Source: Dyella lutea | Lineage (GTDB): Bacteria; Pseudomonadota; Gammaproteobacteria; Xanthomonadales; Rhodanobacteraceae | Length of the DNA: 64,000 nt | NCBI RefSeq assembly: GCF_024158035.1 | Contig: NZ_JAMZEK010000004.1 | Coordinates: 310,001-374,000, forward strand | Reading direction: 5' to 3' | Shown here: piece by piece, positions 5,495 to 43,413 of the stretch | How the letters are laid out: every line of letters begins with the position of its first letter | Position numbering within the stretch: the first letter of the stretch is position 1 | The notes under the pieces: model-generated | Told to the model about the DNA's origin: nothing | Database searches by the model: none | What the model saw: the letters and a program-made list of their open reading frames with translations, nothing else | Made by a program: the position numbers and the translations under genes

Positions 5495-6426
5495 GCGCGA
5501 TGCCCTGGCTGGACGACGCCTGGCGCCGGTTGCAGGCGCGCCGCGAGCGCGGAGCGCTGCCCCACGCGCTGCTGATCTGCGGACCCGAGGGTCTCGGCAA
5601 GCGCGACTTCGCCGCACGATTCGTCCGTGGGCTGTTGTGCCAGCAGCCGGAGCTGGGTGAGGCCTGCGGGCACTGTCGCAGTTGCGTGCTGCTGGATGCG
5701 GGAACGCACCCGGATCGCGTCGCGGTGGGCTACGGCCTGCGCAAGGACGGCGTGCAGCGCAGCGAGATCGTGATCGACCAGATCCGCGAGCTGTCCGCCC
5801 GCCTGGCCATGGCCAGCCAGTTCGGCGGCTGGCAGGTCGCGACCATTGATCCGGCCGACGCACTGAATGCCGCGGCGGCCAACGCGTTGCTCAAGACGCT
5901 GGAGGAGCCGGCGGCACAGACCATGCTGGTGCTGGTGGCCGATGCGCCATGGCGTCTGCCGCAGACGATCCGCAGTCGTTGCCAGCGGATCGAGTTCCAC
6001 CTGCCCGAGCCGGCCCAGGCGTTGGCCTGGTTGCAGGCCCGGGGGGTGGTCGATCCCGCTTCGGCGCTGCGGGCGGCCGGCGGCAATCCCGGCCTGGCCC
6101 GGCGTTGGGCGGAGGAGGGGGCGCTGGATCGTCGCAGCGAAGTGCGTCGCGACCTTGCGGCCCTGGCCGCCGGCCGCGGTGAGGCTGCCGATGTGGTCCG
6201 GCGCTGGCTGGACAGCGAACCCGCCCAGCGGGTCTGGTTCGCGGCCCAGGCCGTCGCCGACGAGAGCCGTGCGCGGGCCGCCGGCGAGGCCGGGCCGCTG
6301 GCCAGCGGCATGGACACGGCGGCGCTGGGCGAATGGTACGACCGCGCCAACCGCACGCGCGACTCGCTGCGCGGTCCGCTGCGCGGCGACCTGGCTCTGC
6401 TGGAGCTGCTGGCCCGCTGGCGCTGA
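5491..6426 (+). CDS. holB: DNA polymerase III delta' subunit
   Basis: Clamp-loader subunit of the DNA polymerase III holoenzyme. 311 residues. The AAA+ fold has a P-loop-like GPEGLGKRDFA, a four-Cys zinc module (CQQPELGEACGHCRSC), NALLKTLEEPAAQTMLVLVAD, and the SRC-type motif TIRSRCQRIEF. It overlaps tmk by four bases. The 3' end is followed 24 bases later by a PIG-L gene, which separates holB from pilZ; in related Xanthomonadales the two are commonly close together. Confidence 0.94.
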   Translation: MSAMPWLDDAWRRLQARRERGALPHALLICGPEGLGKRDFAARFVRGLLCQQPELGEACGHCRSCVLLDAGTHPDRVAVGYGLRKDGVQRSEIVIDQIRELSARLAMASQFGGWQVATIDPADALNAAAANALLKTLEEPAAQTMLVLVADAPWRLPQTIRSRCQRIEFHLPEPAQALAWLQARGVVDPASALRAAGGNPGLARRWAEEGALDRRSEVRRDLAALAAGRGEAADVVRRWLDSEPAQRVWFAAQAVADESRARAAGEAGPLASGMDTAALGEWYDRANRTRDSLRGPLRGDLALLELLARWR

Positions 6427-6450
6427 GCGCGGCCCGGGCAGCGATCGAAC

Positions 6451-7374
6451 ATGGAAACCCTGTTGGCGCGCACGCGGCTGCTGGTGGTCGCTCCCCATCC
6501 GGACGACGAGACGCTGGCGACCGGCATCCTGATCCAGCGGGTACTCGCGGCCGGCGGCGCGGTGCACGTATTGCTGCTCACCGATGGCGACAACAATCCG
6601 TGGCCGCAGCGTCGGCTGGAGCGGCGGCTGTGGGTCGGGCGGCGGGCACGGGCGCACTGGGCCCTTCGCCGGCGCGGCGAATTCATGGGGGCGCTCGACG
6701 AGCTGGGTGTGCCCGCTTCGGACATCACGGCGATGGGGTGGCCCGATCAGGGGCTCACCGGGCTGATCGCCATCGATGCGGCCGCCCGTGTCGAGGCGCT
6801 GGATGCGGTCGTCGCTCGGGTGCGGCCCACCCTCGTGGCGATGCCGGCACTGGACGACCGGCACCCGGACCATGGGGCAGCTCATGTGCTCATGCGGCTG
6901 GCACTGGAGCGGAGGGCCGAGTTGCCGGCGATCTGGCTCTACCGGGTGCACGGTGGCACGCGAAGGGTGCGCCCATCGTTGGCCTGCGTCGCCGACGCTC
7001 CAACCTGGGCGCGCAAGCGCTCCGCGCTCGCGCGGCATGCCAGCCAGCTGGTGCTGAGCCGGCGCCGCATGGAGCGGCTGGCCGCCCGTACCGAACGATT
7101 CGAAGTGCTGTCGACGGAATCGCTTCCGCGGGAACTGCCCTGGTTGCCGAGCTGGCCGCTGCGGACCTGTCTGCGGCTGACCGCGGCCACGGCCGGTGCC
7201 GGCATCGCTTGGCGGTGGATGCGCGCCCCGCTCCAGCGCCTGCCTGGCGCCACCTTCCGGCTGGCCGAGGGTGTATTGCCAGCCGGGGAGGGGGCGCTAT
7301 TCGTCAAACTCGAGCTCACGCTGCCCTCGGTCTGGATTTACGATCACTGGGGCTGGTGCGAACTGCGCCGCTAA
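6451..7374 (+). CDS. PIG-L/LmbE family deacetylase
   Basis: Predicted zinc-dependent N-acetylglucosamine-type deacetylase. 307 residues. The N-terminal metal motif PHPDDE (in VVAPHPDDETLATG) and the second motif DDRHPDHGAAH identify the family. The substrate cannot be read from sequence; relatives act on GlcNAc-phosphoinositide, mycothiol precursors or polysaccharides. There is no signal peptide. It is co-directional with holB and pilZ and probably in the same operon. Its presence between them looks like an insertion into a conserved neighbourhood. Confidence 0.85.
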   Translation: METLLARTRLLVVAPHPDDETLATGILIQRVLAAGGAVHVLLLTDGDNNPWPQRRLERRLWVGRRARAHWALRRRGEFMGALDELGVPASDITAMGWPDQGLTGLIAIDAAARVEALDAVVARVRPTLVAMPALDDRHPDHGAAHVLMRLALERRAELPAIWLYRVHGGTRRVRPSLACVADAPTWARKRSALARHASQLVLSRRRMERLAARTERFEVLSTESLPRELPWLPSWPLRTCLRLTAATAGAGIAWRWMRAPLQRLPGATFRLAEGVLPAGEGALFVKLELTLPSVWIYDHWGWCELRR

Positions 7375-21287: not shown

Positions 21288-22742
21288 ATGCCCTCAATGA
21301 ATGACATCCTGATCCTTGCGCCGGAGTTCTACCTGGTCGCGGCCGCGTGCTTGCTGTTGCTGCTCGACGCATTCATGAAGCCCGAGCAGCGGCACTGGCT
21401 GCACTGGCTCTCCATCGCCGTGCTGGCGGTGGCGGTCTACATGGTGGTCGGTGCCGTGCCGCCGGTTACCGTGACAGCCTTCCACGGCATGTTCGTGCGC
21501 GACGGCGTGGCGACCATCCTGAAGGTGTTCGCGCTGCTGACCACGATCCTGGTGTTCGTGTATTCGCGTCCCTACCTGCGCGACCGCAAGCTGTTCATCG
21601 GCGAGTTCTACACGCTGATGATCTTCGCGGTGATCGGCGTGATGCTGCTGGTCTCGGCCGGCAGCCTGGTCACCGTCTACCTCGGCCTGGAGCTGTTGTC
21701 GCTGTCGTCCTACGCGCTGGTGGCGCTGAACCGCGACGCGCCGCTGCCCTCCGAGGCGGCGATGAAGTACTTCGTGCTGGGTGCGCTGGCCTCGGGCATG
21801 CTGCTGTATGGCATGTCGATGGTGTACGGCGCTTCCGGCATGGGCGGGCAGGCCACCCTGGACCTGGCCCAGCTGAAGTCCGTGATGGGTTACACCCAGG
21901 CGCCGACGCTGCTGTTGTTCGGCCTGGTGTTCATGGTCGTGGGCATCAGCTTCAAGCTCGGTGTCGCGCCGTTCCATATGTGGATCCCGGACGTCTATCA
22001 AGGCGCGCCGACGCCGATCACCACCTTCATCGCCTCGGCGTCCAAGCTGGCGGCCTTCGGCATGGCCTATCGCCTGCTGGCCGGCGGCATGGCCGAGGTG
22101 TGGCACCAGTGGCAGCTGATGCTGGCGGTGCTGGCGGTGCTCTCGCTGGCGATCGGCAACCTCGTCGCGATCGTGCAGACCAACCTCAAGCGCATGCTGG
22201 CGTACTCGACCATCTCGCACATGGGTTACCTGCTGCTAGGCCTTTCGGCGGCCAACCCCGAGGGCTATTCGGCGGCGATGTTCTACGCGATCAGCTATGC
22301 GCTGATGAGCACGGCGTCGTTCGGCGTGATCCTGGCGCTGAGCCGTGCCGGTTTCGAGTGCGAGGAGATCGACGACCTGCGTGGTCTCAACCAGCGCTCG
22401 CCCTGGCTGGCCTTCCTGATGCTGCTGGTGATGGTCTCGCTGGCCGGTGTGCCGCCGATGTTCGGCTTCTTCGCCAAGCTGCTGGTGCTGCAGGCGGCCG
22501 TGCACGCGAACATGCTGTGGCTGGCGATCGTCGGCGCGGTGTTCGCTATCATCGGCCTGTACTACTACCTGCGCGTGGTGAAGGTGATGTACTTCGACAA
22601 GGCGGTCGAGGGCTCGGAACTGCGCATGCAGTCCGACGGCTCGCTGCGCGTGGTGCTGTCGCTCAACGCGCTGGGCCTGCTGGCCATAGGCCTGTACTGG
22701 GGGCCGCTGATCGCGTGGTGCCGCAACGCGCTGGCCGGCTGA
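21288..22742 (+). CDS. nuoN: NADH-quinone oxidoreductase subunit N
   Basis: Antiporter-like proton-pumping subunit closest to the peripheral arm, 484 residues. The key Glu is in YLGLELLSLSSYALVALNRD and the Lys in SFKLGVAPFHMWIPDVYQGAPTPI. STISHMGYLLLGLS and SLAGVPPMFGFFAKLLVLQ are typical. It is the last nuo gene; all fourteen subunits A-N are present and in the standard order. Confidence 0.97.
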   Translation: MPSMNDILILAPEFYLVAAACLLLLLDAFMKPEQRHWLHWLSIAVLAVAVYMVVGAVPPVTVTAFHGMFVRDGVATILKVFALLTTILVFVYSRPYLRDRKLFIGEFYTLMIFAVIGVMLLVSAGSLVTVYLGLELLSLSSYALVALNRDAPLPSEAAMKYFVLGALASGMLLYGMSMVYGASGMGGQATLDLAQLKSVMGYTQAPTLLLFGLVFMVVGISFKLGVAPFHMWIPDVYQGAPTPITTFIASASKLAAFGMAYRLLAGGMAEVWHQWQLMLAVLAVLSLAIGNLVAIVQTNLKRMLAYSTISHMGYLLLGLSAANPEGYSAAMFYAISYALMSTASFGVILALSRAGFECEEIDDLRGLNQRSPWLAFLMLLVMVSLAGVPPMFGFFAKLLVLQAAVHANMLWLAIVGAVFAIIGLYYYLRVVKVMYFDKAVEGSELRMQSDGSLRVVLSLNALGLLAIGLYWGPLIAWCRNALAG

Positions 22743-22818: not shown

Positions 22819-22895
22819 TGCGGGGTGGAGCAGTCTGGCAGCTCGTCGGGCTCATAACCCGAAGGTCGCAGGTTCGAATCCTGCCCCCGCTACCA
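22819..22895 (+). tRNA. metY: initiator tRNA-fMet(CAT), prophage integration site
   Basis: 77 bases with encoded CCA, anticodon CAT at 22853-22855. Initiator hallmarks: unpaired 1:72 position (T:T), three GC pairs at the base of the anticodon stem (TCGGG-CTCATAA-CCCGA), and A11:T24 in the D stem. The 3' half (22852-22895) also encodes, on the other strand, the C-terminus of the adjacent serine recombinase. In E. coli an initiator tRNA (metY) precedes rimP-nusA-infB; a similar order in this host would mean the prophage now separates them, which is an inference. Confidence 0.95.
22852..22895. other. inferred attL region within the tRNA
   Basis: The prophage integrase ends inside this stretch, so the host/phage junction (attL) is probably here or very close. 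Integration at the 3' half of a tRNA gene normally restores a full tRNA, as seen. The exact crossover cannot be fixed without attR, which lies outside the window. Confidence 0.5.
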
Positions 22896-24396
22896 CAGAT
22901 ATCTCACTCGATGCGGCGACCTCAGCGATGAGGTCGCCGTTTTCGCTTTTGAGGGTGATGCGGTCACCGAGCAGGTCACGGATCGCGGCGCGCGCTTCGT
23001 GCTTGTTGCGTCCCACGTCGGCCAGTCGATCGATGATGCTCTGCCAGCGCTCGCGGGCACGCGGCAGGAACTGCGCCGGCTGAAACGCCTTCAGCTGGTC
23101 CAGGTGCGCGCGAGCAGCGACCACATCGGCCTCCGACTTCACCAGCTCCGCCTTCGTGCTCGCCGTGATGATGCCGGCGCGGATCGCTCCCATCACGTTC
23201 TCATGCACGCGCTCTGCCTCGGCCACACGCCGGCGGCCGGAATCCAGGTCCGGCGCGGCGCGCTTGAGCGCTTCGGCTGCAGCCCGCTGGAATCGCGCGA
23301 AGGCGGCCTCGCTCAGCAGATCCTTTCGGATGCTCGCCAGCAGGGCATGCTCGAGCGTGGCGCGCGGCACGCGCAGCCGGGAAGGGCATACGCTATCCCC
23401 GCGATCCTTGTGCCTGGCGCAGCCGTACCGATAGCGGTCGACGATCACCATCGGGCCACCGCAGTGGTCACAGCGCAGCAGGCCGCTCAGCAGGTGCTTC
23501 GGCGGCCGGCCGGCGCCGGCGCCCGGCGTGACCGTACGCGCCGGCGAGGCGCCGCGGATCCGGGCCTGTGCAGCCTCCCACGTCGAACGGTCGATGATCG
23601 CCAGCTCCAGCTTCTCGGTGGTGATCCATTCCGACTCCGGCCGTTCCTTGCGCACGCGACGCCCGGTCTCCGGGTGCTTCACCCAGTGACTTCGGTTCCA
23701 GACCTGGCGGCCGATATAGATGGGGTTGGCCAAGATGCCGATGCCGCGCCGCACGTCGCCGTAGATCACGGACATGGCCCACTGGCCACCGCGTGGCGAG
23801 CGCACGCGCTCGGAGTTCAACGCCGCCGCGATCTCCCGCGGGCTGCGGCCGTCGATGTATTCGGCGTAGATCCTGCGCACCACGGCCGCCTGCGCCTCGT
23901 CGATCTCGCGCTGCCCGTCGCCCAGCGCCCGGTATCCATAGGGCAGGCCGCCGGCGCTGGCGCCCGCGAGCGCGCGCCCAGTGAGGCCGCGGTGGGTCTT
24001 CTCGGCCAGGTCATCCAGGTACAGCTCCGACATCAGGCCGCGCAGGCCGGTGTCGAGCTTGTGGTTCTTGCGTGCGGTGTCGACGCCATCACTCACGCCG
24101 ATCAGGCGCACGCCGCGGAAGCGCAGGCGCTTGATCACCATGCCCAGCTCTTCCTTGTCGCGCCCGAAGCGCGACAGGTCATCGACCAGGATCACGTCGA
24201 ACAGGTCCGCGTCGCGCAGCAGCTGCTGGTATCCGGGGCGATCCAGCCGCGCGCCGCTCACGGCGGCATCCTGGTACACCTCCGGCGCGGCCCAGCCCTG
24301 CCGGGCGCAGAAGGCTCGGCAGTTCCGGAGCTGGTCCTCGAGGCTGGCTTCCCGCTGGCTGTCGGAGCTGAAACGGGCGTATGCGGCTGTTTTCAT
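22852..24396 (-). CDS. int: large serine recombinase (prophage integrase)
   Basis: Site-specific recombinase that integrates and excises the prophage. 514 residues. The N-terminal resolvase domain has nucleophile Ser10 in YARFSSDSQ and the VDDLSRFGRD motif. A recombinase domain (GLPYGYRAL onward), a four-Cys zinc ribbon (LLRCDHCGG ... CARHKDRGDSVCPS, about residues 305-345) and a long helical coiled coil follow. The last 14 or so codons (VVAGAGFEPATFGL) and the TGA stop are the antisense of the host tRNA gene, so its C-terminus depends on the integration site. It is the last gene of the leftward operon, 11 bases after the gene before it. Confidence 0.93.
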   Translation of the reverse strand: MKTAAYARFSSDSQREASLEDQLRNCRAFCARQGWAAPEVYQDAAVSGARLDRPGYQQLLRDADLFDVILVDDLSRFGRDKEELGMVIKRLRFRGVRLIGVSDGVDTARKNHKLDTGLRGLMSELYLDDLAEKTHRGLTGRALAGASAGGLPYGYRALGDGQREIDEAQAAVVRRIYAEYIDGRSPREIAAALNSERVRSPRGGQWAMSVIYGDVRRGIGILANPIYIGRQVWNRSHWVKHPETGRRVRKERPESEWITTEKLELAIIDRSTWEAAQARIRGASPARTVTPGAGAGRPPKHLLSGLLRCDHCGGPMVIVDRYRYGCARHKDRGDSVCPSRLRVPRATLEHALLASIRKDLLSEAAFARFQRAAAEALKRAAPDLDSGRRRVAEAERVHENVMGAIRAGIITASTKAELVKSEADVVAARAHLDQLKAFQPAQFLPRARERWQSIIDRLADVGRNKHEARAAIRDLLGDRITLKSENGDLIAEVAASSEISVVAGAGFEPATFGL

Positions 24397-28261: not shown

Positions 28262-28872
28262 CACGCCACCTCCAGGCAGTTCGCGTTTGGTGCTGCAGCG
28301 ACCATTGCCCTGTAGGCGGGGAACATGGTCGCGATGGCGATCGCGATATCGTCCAGGGAGGACGCACCCACGGCGTCGAAGTGCTTTGTCAGCAGAATCC
28401 TTGCCGCGGCTTTTGCCGACGTCATGTCTTCCTGCGAAGGAACCGGCCATGCAGCTGCTGCTGCAGCGGCAATCTGCTCGTGGCTTGGCTCCCGAGGGAC
28501 CAGTGCCATGCCTTCGGGAACATTCAGTCGCTCAGCGGACGGCACTGCAAGGTCAGCGCGCACATACTGGATCTCCAAGCCGCCAATGGGCTCGTCGTGC
28601 CACGTCACGTCGAACGCGCCAGGCCACCGCTCACCTCGGTCGCTGTTGTCGCCATCGGTATCTATCTGGAGCCAGATGCGCGCCGGGGCCGATCGGTCGA
28701 GTTCGCCGGGCACGTAGCCGCAGCTGCTGGCCAACCTCCCGTTCAGAACAGAAGTCATCCGCTCGATCTCCGCCCGCATGGCCTTGAGCGCCTGCGAGGC
28801 GATCCACGGCGCCGGCGAAGCATGGTCGGCGAGCTCCAGGGCGCGCTCTAACGTGATGTCTTGCGGTTGCAT
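28261..28872 (-). CDS. hypothetical prophage protein
   Basis: 203 residues from ATG 28872; overlaps the end of the reverse transcriptase by 25 bases and the parB-like start by one. The N-terminal (LERALELADHASPAPWIASQALKAMR) and C-terminal parts (HEQIAAAAAAAWPVPSQEDM; AARILLTKHFDAVGAS) are helical; proteins with such repeated 'EQI..AA' helices occur in many phages without a known role. Confidence 0.65.
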   Translation of the reverse strand: MQPQDITLERALELADHASPAPWIASQALKAMRAEIERMTSVLNGRLASSCGYVPGELDRSAPARIWLQIDTDGDNSDRGERWPGAFDVTWHDEPIGGLEIQYVRADLAVPSAERLNVPEGMALVPREPSHEQIAAAAAAAWPVPSQEDMTSAKAAARILLTKHFDAVGASSLDDIAIAIATMFPAYRAMVAAAPNANCLEVA

Positions 28873-30224
28873 GCAGTGATCCTCACGGTGATGCGACGCC
28901 CGCTCAGTCGATGGCTGAAGCGGCGGCGCGAATTGATCATGGAGGCCAGCCACGGGCGCTGTTGCATCAGGCGATGGCACAGCCGGCGGGCGTTGGCATG
29001 GCGGAAGTGGCCGTCGTAACTGGCCCAGATGGCGTCGAGCCTCTGGATGGCCTCTGGCGTGGCACGCACGCCGGCCCGCACCTGGTGCTCGCGGTGCCAC
29101 GCATCCAGCCGCTCGGCGGCATGGCTGACGACGCGCCGGCGCACCCGGGTATGGGTGGGGAAGACGACATAGCCGAGGAAGTCAATGCCGGCGGACAGCG
29201 GGCGCAGCCGGATGTCGTCCTTCAGGCGCAACCGCAGGCGCTGGCCGAGGAACTGCTCGATCTGCGCCTGCCAGCGCTCCAGCACGGCGCGGTCGCGGTG
29301 CACCAGCACGAAGTCGTCGACGTAGCGCAGGTAGCGCCTGGCCTTGAGCACGTGCTTGACGAACTGGTCCAGCGCGTCGAGGTAGACGTTGGCGAAGAAC
29401 TGGGACGACAGGTTGCCGATCGGCAGGCCGAAGCCCGGCGGCGCGTTCTCCAGCCGCTTATGTGCCGGCACCTGCGCGCGCTGCTCTGGCGTGGCGCGGT
29501 GGATGACGCCCTGGCGCTGCACAGGATGGCGCAGGAGTGCGTGCACGGCCCGCATGGCGGTGACGGGTAGGCCGGCGCGCGCGAGGCGCGCCTTGAGCAT
29601 GGCGTACAGCGTGGGCCGATGTATGGCGTTGAAGAAGTTGTGCACGTCCAGCTGCAGGTACCAGCCGCCGCCCTGTCCGCTGTGCACCTGGCGCACGAAC
29701 TGCTGCAGGCGCTTCACTGCCGCATGCGTGCCTTTGCCCTTGCGGTTGGCGTAGCTGTCGTGGATGAAGGTGGGCTCATAGACCGCCTCCAGCTGCGGCA
29801 CCAGCCAGTGGTGCACCACGCGGTCGCCGAAGTCGGGCGCATGGATCTCGCGCGCCTTGGGCCGCGTGGCGATGAAACAGGTGGTGGGCGCCGGCGACCA
29901 GGTGCCCGCGGCGAGGCGCTCCTGCAGGTCAAGCAGCCGATCGATGGATCGCAGATCGAATGCCAGCTGGTTGGCGCTCGGCTGCTTGTTGCGGCGCGCG
30001 GCATGCCACGCCTGGTACAAAGCCCGCAGGCTCACCTCACCCTGACACTCACTGGCCGGCGCCACGCGACGCACCGCCCGCACGAACGCGGTGTTGTTCC
30101 GGTGGTTGTTGTTCACGTTGCCGTTGTTGAAGTTGACGATCCACGCGTAGTCCGAGGACCACGCCTCCCCGCGCTCTTGCGATCCGGCCATGCATCCTTG
30201 CTGTGGGTAGCGGGGCGTCGTCAT
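28848..30224 (-). CDS. DGR reverse transcriptase (frame includes the template repeat)
   Basis: Error-prone reverse transcriptase of a diversity-generating retroelement. Open frame 458 residues from ATG 30224, which overlaps the avd stop as ATGA. The DGR-type signature LPIGNLSSQFF is present (residues about 267-277, where retroviral-type enzymes have QG..SP), and the active site is YVDDFVL (YVDD 301-304), with LDVHNFFNAIH as the motif A aspartate. Residues 20-58 are encoded by the template repeat itself. The typical DGR-RT N-terminus (LRALYQAWHAARR) starts only after it, so a GTG at 30035 is an alternative start giving 395 residues. Which start is used cannot be decided from sequence. Confidence 0.93.
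   Translation of the reverse strand: MTTPRYPQQGCMAGSQERGEAWSSDYAWIVNFNNGNVNNNHRNNTAFVRAVRRVAPASECQGEVSLRALYQAWHAARRNKQPSANQLAFDLRSIDRLLDLQERLAAGTWSPAPTTCFIATRPKAREIHAPDFGDRVVHHWLVPQLEAVYEPTFIHDSYANRKGKGTHAAVKRLQQFVRQVHSGQGGGWYLQLDVHNFFNAIHRPTLYAMLKARLARAGLPVTAMRAVHALLRHPVQRQGVIHRATPEQRAQVPAHKRLENAPPGFGLPIGNLSSQFFANVYLDALDQFVKHVLKARRYLRYVDDFVLVHRDRAVLERWQAQIEQFLGQRLRLRLKDDIRLRPLSAGIDFLGYVVFPTHTRVRRRVVSHAAERLDAWHREHQVRAGVRATPEAIQRLDAIWASYDGHFRHANARRLCHRLMQQRPWLASMINSRRRFSHRLSGRRITVRITACNRKTSR
30051..30165 (-). repeat. DGR template repeat (TR)
   Basis: About 115 bases matching the 3' ends of three upstream target genes. Read on the minus strand it contains nine AAC codons plus GAC, ATC and ACC at the positions that vary in the targets. 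The GC-rich 3' 43 bases (minus-strand end, 30051-30093) are identical in all copies and would be the initiation-of-mutagenic-homology region. It lies between avd and the reverse transcriptase, in the frame of the latter. Confidence 0.95.
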
Positions 30225-30655
30225 CGGTTGGCCTCATCCGTCGAGGCGGCGCGGGTACTCAGTGTCTTGGCACGCTGCCCCTGCGCTCGCGCCGGGGCAC
30301 TCTGGCCTTGAGGGTGATGCTGCTTGTGCCAGCCACCGATCTGGCGACCCAGTGCGGCGGCGCCACGCGCCAGCGCTTCGAACTGACCGAAGCTGGCGAA
30401 CACGCGGAGTTGCTTGCCCAGCTGCAGGGCGAGCTTCAGCTCGTCGACCTCCCACACCAGCTGCTCCAGCCAGCTCGCCTGGCGCGCCCGATCACGGGCC
30501 GCCCGGTTGGCGGTGAGCAGCACGGCCCAGCTGCAGGCGCGCAGCTTCTCGCCGAACGTGTACCGATATCGGCGCGGGAACCTGGCCGAGGCCTGCTCGA
30601 TGTCGCGAGCGAGGCCTTCGGCAAGGCGCACGGCGGGTGGGAGGATGAAGGTCAT
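30221..30655 (-). CDS. avd: accessory variability determinant (Avd-like)
   Basis: 144 residues. It resembles the small four-helix-bundle Avd proteins that bind DGR reverse transcriptases and the template RNA: basic helices (ARFPRRYRYTFGEKLRACSWAVLLTANRAARDR), WLEQLVWEVDELKLALQLGKQLRVF, and the characteristic ending LARGAAALGRQIGGWHKQHH. The tail is Ala/Arg/Gln-rich. It lies between the third target gene and the template repeat, the usual Avd place. Confidence 0.88.
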   Translation of the reverse strand: MTFILPPAVRLAEGLARDIEQASARFPRRYRYTFGEKLRACSWAVLLTANRAARDRARQASWLEQLVWEVDELKLALQLGKQLRVFASFGQFEALARGAAALGRQIGGWHKQHHPQGQSAPARAQGQRAKTLSTRAASTDEANR

Positions 30656-30679
30656 GGTGTGGTTAGGCCAAGAAGCCGA

Positions 30680-31120
30680 TTACTGACTGGCCGGCGCCAC
30701 GCGACGCACCGCCCGCACGAACGCGGTGAGGCCCCGGTGGCTGAGGTGCACGCTGCCGTCGTGGAAGTGGACGAACCACGCGTAGAACGAGGACCACGCG
30801 TAGAACGAGGACCACGCACTATCGGTGCCAGTCCAGTACCAGTCCGCCTTCGCATCCGGGAACAGATCCGTATCGCAGGACGGGCTCTTGCGGCTGTAGT
30901 CGACGATCGACACCAGCTCCTGGACGGTGGGCAGGCGCCAGTCATCGAAGCCGGCGTTGTTGAGCTCGGACGTTGCCTTTTCGGCCTCGGCGTGCGGCAT
31001 GGGATCCGGCAGCGCGCCCACGGCAAACATCAGCCCGAGGTCCAGCAAGAGAATGGCCGCATGGCCTGTGGCGTCAGCGGCGAGATGCTCGCCGGTGTTG
31101 CTGATCTTGATCGCATTCAT
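30680..31120 (-). CDS. DGR target protein 1 (DUF1566-like), ends in VR1
   Basis: 146 residues from ATG 31120. The DUF1566/Lcl-type core reads FDDWRLPTVQELVSIVDYSRKSP and ADWYWTGT. The C-terminus is the variable repeat, ending in the fixed FVRAVRRVAPASQ. Varied residues relative to the template are F, F, H, H, D, S, H, L, S, G and L. The block AWSSFY is duplicated because of an 18-bp tandem repeat. No signal peptide or membrane segment is seen. The protein resembles target 2 over its whole length. Confidence 0.88.
   Translation of the reverse strand: MNAIKISNTGEHLAADATGHAAILLLDLGLMFAVGALPDPMPHAEAEKATSELNNAGFDDWRLPTVQELVSIVDYSRKSPSCDTDLFPDAKADWYWTGTDSAWSSFYAWSSFYAWFVHFHDGSVHLSHRGLTAFVRAVRRVAPASQ
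30686..30817 (-). repeat. DGR variable repeat VR1
   Basis: Copy of the TR in target gene 1, 132 bases because of an 18-bp tandem duplication. On alignment with the TR I count 15 substitutions; 14 are at template adenines and one is at a G (template GAC, variable TTC). The stop codon follows six bases after the repeat. Confidence 0.93.
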
Positions 31121-31147
31121 GGCGGTTCCTTGAAGTGGGTGGGGGAG

Positions 31148-31159
31148 GGCCGAAAGGCC
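31148..31159. promoter_or_regulatory. GAAA-loop hairpin next to VR2
   Basis: Plus-strand GGCC-GAAA-GGCC, 8 bases beyond the end of VR2 (downstream in gene direction). In DGRs a stem with a GNRA-type loop just after the VR helps target-site recognition; the same 12 bases follow VR3 and are absent at the TR. Confidence 0.6.
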
Positions 31160-31161
31160 GA

Positions 31162-31590
31162 TTACTGACTGGCCGGCGCCACGCGACGCACCGCCCGCAC
31201 GAACGCGGAGCTGTCCCGGTGGTTGCCGAGCACGTGGCCGTGGCCGAAGCTGACGAACCACGCGTAGACCGAGGACCACGCCGTCGGCGTGCACGTCCAA
31301 TACCAGTCGCTCTGGGTGTCGCGGAAGTAGGTCGGGTCGATCGCCGGGGAATGGCGGGTGAGGTCGAGAATCGCCTCCAGCTCCAGCCGCTCCGGAAGGC
31401 GCCAGTCGGTGAAGCCGGCCAGGTTGAGCGAAGCGCAGGCCGCCTCGGCATCGGCGAAGTTGAGTTCCTTTTCGCTGATGTCGTCGGCACTGAACATCAG
31501 GCCGAGGCCCGGCAGCAGCACGGCATCCCAGGCGATGGCGTCGGCGGGGAGCTGATCGCCGTTGGCGGCGATCTTGATCATGGTTTCCAT
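31162..31590 (-). CDS. DGR target protein 2 (DUF1566-like), ends in VR2
   Basis: 142 residues (METMIK start; a second ATG three codons later). DUF1566-like core FTDWRLPERLELEAILDLTRHSP and SDWYWTCTPTAWSS, then the variable repeat ending FVRAVRRVAPASQ. Varied residues are V, F, S, G, H, H, L, G, (N unchanged), D, S and S. N-terminus resembles target 1 (IKI..NG..L.ADA ... LGLMF). No signal peptide. 40 bases separate it from target 3. Confidence 0.9.
   Translation of the reverse strand: METMIKIAANGDQLPADAIAWDAVLLPGLGLMFSADDISEKELNFADAEAACASLNLAGFTDWRLPERLELEAILDLTRHSPAIDPTYFRDTQSDWYWTCTPTAWSSVYAWFVSFGHGHVLGNHRDSSAFVRAVRRVAPASQ
31168..31281 (-). repeat. DGR variable repeat VR2
   Basis: 114 bases aligned to the TR without gaps. 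I count 14 substitutions, all at template adenines. The conserved 3' end and the stop codon position match VR1 and VR3. Confidence 0.95.
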
Positions 31591-31616
31591 GGGGTTTCCT
31601 CAGAGTGGAAAGGGAT

Positions 31617-31628
31617 GGCCGAAAGGCC
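31617..31628. promoter_or_regulatory. GAAA-loop hairpin next to VR3
   Basis: GGCC-GAAA-GGCC on the plus strand, at the same distance (8 bases) from VR3 as the copy at VR2. At VR1 the equivalent place (30666-30677) has only GGC-CAAGAA-GCC. Confidence 0.6.
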
Positions 31629-31630
31629 GA

Positions 31631-32131
31631 TTACTGACTGGCCGGCGCCACGCGACGCACCGCCCGCACGAACGCGGTGTAGTTCCGGTGGAGGTAGTAC
31701 ACGTGGCCGTAGTCGAAGTCGACGAGCCACGCGTAGCCCGAGGACCACGCCGTCGGCGTGCGCGACCACACCCAAGTGCTGTTGCTCTTGAACACGCTGG
31801 TGTCGATGCAGGGCTCGTGACGGGTGAGGTCGCGGATGCCTTCCAGCTCCGGCAGATCCGGCAGGCGCCAGTCGTCGAAGCCGCCCAGGCGCAGCTCGCT
31901 GCAGTAGGTTTCGGCGCTCGCGAAATCCATGCGCGCGCCGCTCTCTTCCGCCGCCCACATCAGTCCGGTGCGGTGATCGATGACAGTGGTGCCGTCGTTG
32001 CTGAGCTGAAAGCGGTGCGCAGGCTCGTCGACAGGCTCGGGAGCGGAACCAGGCGTCGGCCACGGCATGGCGATCGACATCGGCGGAAGATGGATGTGCA
32101 GGTGTTTAGCGCTGATCAGGGACGGTTTCAT
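31631..32131 (-). CDS. DGR target protein 3 (DUF1566-like), ends in VR3
   Basis: 166 residues. A Pro/Glu-rich N-terminal stretch (residues 15-40) precedes the DUF1566 core: FDDWRLPDLPELEGIRDLTRHEP and STWVWSRTPTAWSS. The C-terminal repeat ends FVRAVRRVAPASQ. Varied residues are G, L, D, D, Y, H, Y, Y, L, (N), Y and (T). The Tyr/Asp-rich surface resembles binding sites selected in other DGR proteins. The N-terminus differs from targets 1 and 2. No signal peptide. Confidence 0.9.
   Translation of the reverse strand: MKPSLISAKHLHIHLPPMSIAMPWPTPGSAPEPVDEPAHRFQLSNDGTTVIDHRTGLMWAAEESGARMDFASAETYCSELRLGGFDDWRLPDLPELEGIRDLTRHEPCIDTSVFKSNSTWVWSRTPTAWSSGYAWLVDFDYGHVYYLHRNYTAFVRAVRRVAPASQ
31637..31750 (-). 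repeat. DGR variable repeat VR3
   Basis: 114 bases aligned to the TR without gaps. I count 11 substitutions, all at template adenines, so it has diverged least. Confidence 0.95.
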
Positions 32132-32166
32132 GGGTTCCTCGCTGGTGATGGGAATCGCGGACGCGA

Positions 32167-32649
32167 TTACTCCTGAACCTCGTGCTCGCGACAGCAGAGG
32201 TCGAAGGCGCGATTGAGGTCGTTGATCTGGTGCGACTCAGTGGTGTCGTCGGCCAGGAGCGCGGCGTGCTGCTCGCGGTAGGCCGCTCGTGCTTCGGTGG
32301 TGCTGCAGTCGCGCGGCACACCGAGGATCTCGCTCCAGTGGCGCTCGAGCGGCGCCGGCGCTGCGGTGACCTTCACGTCGACACCCAGGCGCTCGCTCAG
32401 GGTGCGGCTGAGGTTGTCGGCCACGTTAGCGGTGATCTTCTCGCTGAGCTTCTGCTCCGGCGGCAGGGTGACGGTCGCCTGCAGGGTGGGGCGCTCGAAC
32501 AGCGCGCGCGGCACCTGCACGGTGATCAGCATCGGGATTTCGCCGGCGGCGCACTTCGGCGGCCGGGCGGTGAGTCGTGCCGCGAGCTTCGGGAAGTGCC
32601 GGCCCTTGCTGGACAGCACCAGGTGGAATTCGCCTTCGATGGTGGACAT
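32167..32649 (-). CDS. hypothetical protein with J-domain-like C-terminus
   Basis: 160 residues from ATG 32649. The N-terminal two thirds is unrecognised (EGEFHLVLSSKGRHFPKLAARLTARPP ... LFERPTLQATVTLPPEQ). The last 50 residues, WSEILGVPRDCSTTEARAAYREQHAALL, look like a J-domain but lack the HPD tripeptide, so DnaK stimulation is doubtful. First gene upstream of the DGR targets in the same operon. Confidence 0.6.
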   Translation of the reverse strand: MSTIEGEFHLVLSSKGRHFPKLAARLTARPPKCAAGEIPMLITVQVPRALFERPTLQATVTLPPEQKLSEKITANVADNLSRTLSERLGVDVKVTAAPAPLERHWSEILGVPRDCSTTEARAAYREQHAALLADDTTESHQINDLNRAFDLCCREHEVQE

Positions 32650-32708
32650 AGCGTGGCCCTGGAAGAGTCGCCGGGATTCCGCCCGGCCGGTGCCCTGCGG
32701 GGCAGACG

Positions 32709-43338: not shown

Positions 43339-43413
43339 AGCGGGCTAGATCAGTGGCAGATCGCTGGGCTCATAACCCGGAGGTCGCTGGTTCGAGTCCA
43401 GCGCCCGCTACCA
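43339..43413 (+). tRNA. phage tRNA with CAT anticodon, initiator-like
   Basis: 75 bases with encoded CCA and anticodon CAT at 43371-43373. All stems pair: acceptor AGCGGGC/GCCCGCT, D stem GATC/GATC, anticodon stem CTGGG/CCCGG, T stem GCTGG/CCAGC. It has three GC pairs in the anticodon stem and A11:T24, as initiators do, but A1:T72 is paired. The D loop is short (7 bases). It lies 7 bases after the preceding gene and before the structural genes. Confidence 0.9.

Follow-up and report, generated by a model that had tools for sequence, protein, structure and literature searches.

A prophage-borne diversity-generating retroelement of Dyella lutea whose template repeat lies within the reverse transcriptase reading frame behind a conserved structured RNA

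How does the enzyme of a diversity-generating retroelement (DGR) find its template, and where does synthesis of that enzyme begin, when the template lies inside the enzyme's own reading frame? The questions are raised by a 64,000-nucleotide stretch of Dyella lutea DNA (contig NZ_JAMZEK010000004.1, positions 310,001 to 374,000; "the window", whose coordinates are used here), in which the minus strand from 28848 to 32131 is a complete DGR borne by a contractile-tail prophage. Template finding and the start and stop of complementary DNA (cDNA) synthesis by a DGR enzyme have been worked out in detail for BPP-1, whose folded spacer is 3′ of the template repeat (TR); in the family of the window's element a fold lies 5′ of the TR, none was detected 3′ of it, and the reverse transcriptase (RT) frame passes through the template. 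The explanation that we consider probable is that this is a DGR whose TR is translated as part of the RT and whose folded 5′ RNA acts as a handle on the template. The family is a compact natural case for the RNA needs of the RT-Avd complex and for translational control of hypermutation. All cassette features below are on the minus strand.

The TR was delimited by repeat comparison as a 114-nt core at 30051–30164, and its variable repeats (VRs) lie at 30686–30799 (VR1), 31168–31281 (VR2) and 31637–31750 (VR3), each in a separate target gene. A first-pass annotation of the window, made from its letters, had proposed a complete DGR in which three genes share one 114-base repeat with a fourth, template copy, and a 133-base TR query of the 4.4-Mb genome found exactly four copies, all at this DGR. 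VR1 differs from the TR at 15 positions, 14 of them template adenines, and the 14 changes in VR2 and 11 in VR3 are all at template adenines, so that our recount (39 of 40 substitutions at adenines) is identical to that of the annotation, as is the count of nine AAC codons in the TR. The sole other substitution is a G>T in VR1. Adenine-specific scoring of the TR against its VRs, which the annotation had suggested as a check, is decisive: 20 of the 21 varying TR columns are adenine, a base that makes up 24 of the 114 TR positions (hypergeometric p 2e-17). Non-adenine VR positions agree with the TR in 269 of 270 cases; between targets, the VRs differ at 0 or 1 of the 90 non-adenine template positions (99–100% identity) and at 15–16 of the 24 adenine positions, while the target genes upstream of the VRs are only 50–60% identical to one another. 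Such near-identity of non-adenine VR positions next to diverged upstream sequence is the mark of mutagenic retrohoming, as the annotation had read it. An 18-bp tandem in-frame duplication (30782–30817; copies 30817–30800 and 30799–30782) is present at the 5′ edge of VR1, and both copies bear the single non-adenine change; it arose perhaps by slippage or at an aberrant cDNA 5′ junction. Close strains in which the VRs might be in other states were sought through the RT in 98 genomes, of which the present one is one; outside it there is no near-identical RT, and the highest identity is 42%.

The proteins of the cassette were identified by database searches, which agree with the annotation in finding an avd-like gene and a DGR-type RT. 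The RT open reading frame (ORF; 28848–30224, 458 aa) matches Pfam RVT_1 (3e-14) and a PHROG RT family (5e-99), and its best PDB sequence match (6e-36) is the BPP-1 enzyme, a chain that we equated with BPP-1 brt by sequence comparison; the alignment, which begins at residue 70 of the window RT (BPP-1 residue 19), covers the IGNLSSQ and YVDD motifs, and the active-site region is conserved. The avd gene (30221–30655) encodes the accessory protein that many but not all DGRs have: its product matches the PHROG family "Avd protein of DGR" (8e-16) and, slightly short of the Pfam cut-off, Pfam bAvd (9e-9). Its TGA overlaps the ATG of the RT ORF in the sequence ATGA (30224–30221). The three target genes, at 30680–31120 (146 aa), 31162–31590 (142 aa) and 31631–32131 (166 aa), have exactly the coordinates given for three DUF1566-like genes in the annotation, and each matches Pfam Lcl_C (DUF1566) with E values of 4e-23 to 9e-26 over about two thirds or more of its span; in all three the VR core stops one codon short of the stop codon. 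DUF1566 is described in the accessible text of PMC6642488 as having a C-type-lectin (CLec) fold, and the targets are predicted from their sequences to be C-type-lectin-fold proteins diversified at their C-terminal ends. By Pfam they are single-domain proteins; DGR targets are typically multi-domain, according to the available part of Roux et al. (PMC8144416). In the family as a whole the longest target ORFs are mostly 130–300 aa (162 of 174 complete ones, some of whose starts are surely overextended).

With this cassette in view, one might suppose that the A-biased repeats are old and that what remains is an inactive relic in a decaying prophage. The non-adenine change and the duplication in VR1 are what such decay might leave; avd, the RT gene and the three targets, however, are intact ORFs, the RT keeps its active-site region, the non-adenine VR positions have stayed matched to the TR in spite of the divergence of the targets around them, and the prophage structural genes that we searched are long, intact ORFs as well. 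We regard a relic as very improbable.

In one respect the first-pass annotation did not hold: it placed the TR between avd and the RT gene, but the TR sits inside the RT ORF. The first ~20 codons of that ORF are the end of a 5′ RNA element (below), codons ~21–58 are the TR, which the RT frame reads in the frame of the targets, and the RT domain starts at about residue 62; AlphaFold2 predicts that residues 1–61 are disordered and that the RT domain from there on is well folded. The generality of this arrangement was surveyed as follows: two sequence collections were scanned for relatives, the best 80 of 577 and the best 80 of at least 564 confirmed loci were used, and A-biased repeats were sought in these 160 loci and in the window. 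Loci with an RT-core identity of at least 55% were taken as the family, which has 100 members including the window; TR/VR pairs are present in 97, and the three without a detected pair (L006, which is also cut at its 5′ end, L061 and L065) were left out of TR counts. For start-site counts, removal of duplicates left 91 distinct family loci out of 99.

All 97 of these members, the window among them, have an upstream start from which the RT frame runs uninterrupted across the entire TR (89 of 89 after deduplication), and in none of the 97 does a stop codon separate the leader from the RT. AAY codons fall in the RT frame in 93 of the 97. In the remaining four (L059, L073, L082 and L099) frameshifts cause the TR to be read in another frame and the RT frame is regained after it without a stop, so that in these too the reading is unbroken between the same ATG and the RT. 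The start itself is conserved: ATGA or GTGA is found in 99 of 100 members, the sole miss being the truncated L006, the TGA within it is the stop codon of an Avd homologue in 89 of the 91 distinct loci (misses, L018 and L061), and a Shine-Dalgarno (SD)-like motif, defined as four to six bases at −16 to −4, precedes it in 90 of 91. A motif search found this motif in the window as GAGG at 30232–30235. Among the 61 more distant DGRs, 50 with a TR/VR pair, the phase of the AAY codons is spread over the three frames (19, 22 and 9) and 26 are open through the TR. A quick RT tree of 53 of the 91 distinct family loci (the window, the four frameshifted members and 48 random ones), together with 40 distant rows and 6 phages, makes the family a clade with 100% support by the Shimodaira-Hasegawa-like approximate likelihood-ratio test (SH-aLRT), with three phase changes among the 53 family rows by parsimony; in the nearest outgroups, L104, L105 and L112, the TR is closed off from the RT frame. 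The annotation had also called three targets served by one template more than usual; three are indeed present here, but the unusualness is mild, as at least three targets lie within about 6 kb in 20 of the 97 members, and multiple VRs occur in 28.6% of DGRs (271 of 948) in the figures given in the text available of PMC6642488.

What lies directly 5′ of the TR is a conserved structured RNA (30165–30339) that overlaps both the 3′ end of avd and the start of the RT ORF. In an alignment of 69 diverse sequences, RNAalifold scores compared with column shuffles gave z values of −7 to −14 in four alignment segments between −320 and −80 of the TR end, and no signal in the other eleven, which include the TR and the stretch after it. 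The consensus runs from −115 to +59 of the ATG and consists of a hairpin, P1, followed by a three-way junction of P3 and P4 closed by P2. In window coordinates, P1 (30269–30307; 30305–30307 paired with 30269–30271 and 30295–30299 with 30276–30280) lies inside the coding end of avd; P2 (30168–30255; 30249–30255 with 30168–30174) has 7 bp and ends 3 nt short of the TR; P3 (30231–30247; 30244–30247 with 30231–30234) has a 3′ arm that includes three of the four bases of the SD-like GAGG; and P4 (30187–30216; 30214–30216 with 30187–30189 and 30210–30211 with 30192–30193) lies in the RT coding start. Two-sided changes occur in 21 of the 24 consensus pairs. Paired cells make up 96.9% of the alignment's pair cells, 78.3% in shuffles and 51.4% or less when the structure is slid by 1–3 columns, and the two-sided cells number 256 against 54 in shuffles, a value that none of 500 shuffles reaches.

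A covariance model of the element, R1, was run on 87 sources. It scores 127–158 bits in the 18 complete family loci outside its training set, most of which are close kin of training rows, and 44 bits in the 5′-truncated L006. Outside the family it matches 26 of 61 distant DGR loci at E<1e-3, and in 16 of the 24 of these that have a known TR the match ends no more than 15 nt from the TR start; in one without a known TR, L102, it ends 864 nt before the start of the RT core. In its own genome R1 has one strong place, the next being at E 0.055, and none was found at 1e-5, under stricter filters, in 273 other genomes of a class sample. No Rfam family matches at E≤1 over 28800–32700 or at E≤10 over 30160–30480, Rfam 15 finds two tRNAs only across the window, and in 16 distant loci it gives no match at gathering scores. 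R1 offers a way of detecting and classifying DGR RNAs for which Rfam 15 gave no match here.

How might these parts work together? Avd and the error-prone RT would copy the TR transcript into cDNA, with random bases placed opposite adenines, and this cDNA would replace the VRs at the 3′ ends of the three small lectin-fold (Lcl_C) genes. The TR would have been absorbed into the RT gene in this DGR family, and the transcript 5′ of it would fold into a hairpin and three-way junction that cover the start of the RT ORF and its ribosome-binding site. A ribosome that completes avd would melt P1–P3 and begin again at the overlapping ATGA; its path through the element and the TR would then lead into the RT domain, the TR being translated as a disordered tail of the RT. 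Without translation the RNA would fold, the RT start would be locked and the RNA would be the template, its fold providing a handle and a 5′ boundary for reverse transcription of the TR. Comparison of sequences shows the adenine bias, the open frame through the TR, the conserved SD-like motif and ATGA, and the covarying RNA; we infer the avd-coupled initiation, the locking of the start and the retention of the tail in the mature protein, and likewise the binding of RT or Avd to the 5′ RNA, the role of the fold in the template and the exclusivity of messenger and template. One RNA seems to be both messenger and template. A bolder statement, that the RT messenger is its own mutagenic template, that the folded RNA, which lies beside the TRs of many proteobacterial DGRs, locks the RT ribosome-binding site, and that in this prophage clade it switches one RNA between avd-coupled translation through the TR and reverse transcription of the TR, enzyme synthesis and template use being therefore mutually exclusive, is one that we advance tentatively, and with clearly less confidence than the explanation as a whole.

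Several observations weigh against that explanation, and the first concern what it is that selection preserves. Codons were analysed in 87 sequences, as 71 pairs of moderately diverged members. Differences at fourfold-degenerate sites are 0.08 before the TR, 0.05 in it, 0.10 over the next six codons and 0.24–0.34 in the RT body; in avd they are 0.15–0.35 and drop to 0.04–0.05 over the last 27 codons. Nucleotide identity is elevated between about −240 and +30 relative to the end of the TR and peaks in the TR, although single later bins are at 0.93–0.95. Because fourfold-site differences are so low before and in the TR, the constraint there is mostly at the nucleotide level, and since the TR of the four frameshifted members specifies another peptide, which peptide it encodes may be of no importance; we had entertained peptide-level selection on the TR-encoded tail, and the fourfold-site and frameshift results demoted it. 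The aspect of translation that is preserved is the continuity of the frame. The family, moreover, is one clade drawn from best-80 lists, so that 97 of 97 open frames are not 97 independent events, a GTG follows the TR in many members (codon 64 in the window), and SC_8 (L191), a distant phage with another RNA, has a stop inside its TR in the RT frame. As to the RNA, the structure was derived from the same alignment in which its pairs were counted, which gives it an advantage in the slid control, and relatedness is not taken into account by the shuffles; the window sequence alone folds no better than shuffles (z 0.11), and single-sequence folding was set aside as evidence of structure, having given no clear signal where alignment covariation gave one. 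Lastly, in 8 of the 24 distant loci with a known TR the R1 match ends 43–253 nt before the TR, and in L109, which has no known TR, it extends 37 nt into the RT core.

Much of this would also be expected of an ordinary DGR in which the RT starts after the TR, at the GTG of codon 64 in the window, the open frame being a by-product and the 5′ sequence a structure of the template RNA. TR codons are free of stops because they must be usable in the targets, so a TR read in the target frame is almost stop-free by design, and constraint mainly at the nucleotide level before and in the TR is what a template structure calls for. Relatives outside the family could be starting in this way, as in 27 of 50 an in-frame ATG stands close to the end of the TR or beyond it, and 58 of the 91 distinct family loci do offer an in-frame start codon downstream of the TR, for the most part a GTG (63 of 91 candidates). 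In the other 33, however, no in-frame ATG, GTG or TTG occurs anywhere from the end of the TR to a point 40 nt inside the RT core, and an ATG is present in a similar stretch in only 3 of the 91 loci; the SD-like motif is missing at 70 of the 91 candidate starts, in contrast to its near-constant presence at the ATGA. Nor would a by-product be expected to persist in the four members in which the TR is out of the target frame and the frame is open even so, and the nearest outgroups do not keep it. A start after the TR is in our judgement unlikely.

Translation from the ATGA could also have another end: its frame might be a translated regulatory leader, the RT coming mostly from internal initiation or from processing of a precursor in which the TR-encoded tail is removed. 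A tail that is predicted to be disordered and whose sequence is free to change would suit removal, but a leader has no need of the unbroken connection to the RT that all 97 members keep (a cleavage site was not sought), and we hold this to be a very slim prospect, well below that of a start after the TR. The reading that we prefer therefore remains a TR translated within the RT, behind a folded RNA that acts on the template.

On the target side, the stop codon of the VR is followed by some 14 conserved nt (TTGGCCTTTTTGGC-like), and conservation fades ~16 nt from the first base of that codon in a profile of 176 of the 182 VRs. The sequence GGCC-TTTC-GGCC after the stops of target 2 (31148–31159) and target 3 (31617–31628) is part of this element and forms a 4-bp hairpin at VR2 and VR3; the same search found none at VR1. 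The accessible part of PMC3240598 describes a GC-rich hairpin of 7–10 bp with a GRNA loop downstream of the VR in DGRs of the BPP-1 type. We sought this canonical hairpin and rejected it: stems of at least 7 bp occur in 4 of 182 post-VR, 8 of 91 post-TR and 6 of 273 random stretches.

In window coordinates, the left end of the prophage is probably at about 22.9 kb and its right end somewhere between about 70.2 and 70.9 kb. It is flanked by an NADH-dehydrogenase-type gene (21288–22742) with a tRNA-Met behind it and, on the other side, by rimP-nusA-infB. It carries genes for an integrase with a DNA-invertase match, MazG-like and ParB-like proteins, a CI-like repressor, a DnaC-like loader and a Q-like antiterminator, and for an endolysin, terminase, portal, capsid, tail sheath, tape measure and baseplate. 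The tRNA-Met lies at 22819–22895, and the integrase ORF (22852–24396) ends within its gene, on the other strand; this overlap is likely to be the attachment site. Matches of 11–13 nt only, none of them convincing, were found when the attachment repeat was sought in a 20-kb stretch to the right. A second tRNA-Met lies within the prophage at 43339–43413. At the right end, an ORF at 5977–7224 of sequence L185 (window about 68977–70224) resembles by eye, with no family search, a gene for a membrane acyltransferase, and is possibly a surface-modifying lysogenic conversion gene.

Are the targets part of the virion? The DGR and its targets share a strand with the integrase and repressor, and the late genes are on the opposite one. 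In flanks of up to ~6 kb around 90 relatives, homologues of the integrase (14), ParB (14) and CI (12) occur on the DGR strand; ten late and tail genes of the window have no homologues in those flanks, although diverged ones would be missed. The acyltransferase-like ORF is preceded by a Gly-rich protein directly behind the baseplate genes (L185 4872–5741) that is a tail fibre by position only, not having been family-searched, and the TR query of the genome found no TR-like copy or VR in it. A tail-fibre role for the targets was considered and is unsupported, the Gly-rich protein having no TR copy and the relatives' flanks no tail-gene homologues. The diversified small lectin-fold proteins, encoded on the integrase and repressor strand opposite the late genes, may not be receptor-binding proteins of the virion.

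The closest comparison is with BPP-1, which the window's DGR resembles in being phage-borne, with avd upstream, the TR beside the RT gene and adenine-specific VR changes. In BPP-1 (mtd-avd-TR-brt, L186) the TR ends at 2805 and brt starts at 2950, whereas here the TR is within the RT ORF, and the structured RNA of BPP-1 (Rfam RF03022, Phage_DGR, 2810–2942 of L186) is 3′ of the TR, not 5′ of it. A BPP-1-like spacer 3′ of the TR was looked for and dropped, with no RF03022 match in the window or in 8 family loci and no fold signal there; R1 in turn has no match at E≤1 in BPP-1. The window's cassette differs further in its three small targets and in lacking the canonical post-VR hairpin. In BPP-1, a motif in the 3′ end of avd terminates reverse transcription, according to the available portion of PMC12875486.

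Five phages that carry RF03018 (RT-15), namely Burkholderia phage Magia, Pseudomonas phages Cruim01, LPPA56 and SC_8 and Shewanella phage QDWS (L187–L191), offer a second comparison. RF03018 lies directly 5′ of the TR in all five, ending within 2 nt of its 5′ start, and looks like a DGR template-flanking RNA; the TR abuts the RT core and is open in the RT frame in four of the five. They differ from the window's family in that their RNA is unlike R1, which has no match in them at E≤1, in that the RT frame reads the TR in the threonine phase, and in that their RTs are 38–42% identical; the RF03018 covariance model has no match at the window's element.

Overlap of the TR with annotated RT ORFs and multi-VR DGRs with DUF1566 targets were already known; our literature search, within the papers accessible, turned up no description of the 5′ RNA or of a TR that is translated in frame. 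The window fits structural group 3 of DiGReF (Schillinger et al. 2012, PMC3521204), in which the TR overlaps the 5′ end of the RT ORF; as far as the accessible text goes, that group is an arrangement of annotated ORFs, for which neither the frame and start site nor coupling and RNA structure are put to the test. In its targets the cassette is like the multi-VR DGRs of which Stenotrophomonas sp. SKA14 is an example in the accessible text of PMC6642488, with several DUF1566 targets per cassette, the arrangement here being one TR and three VRs.

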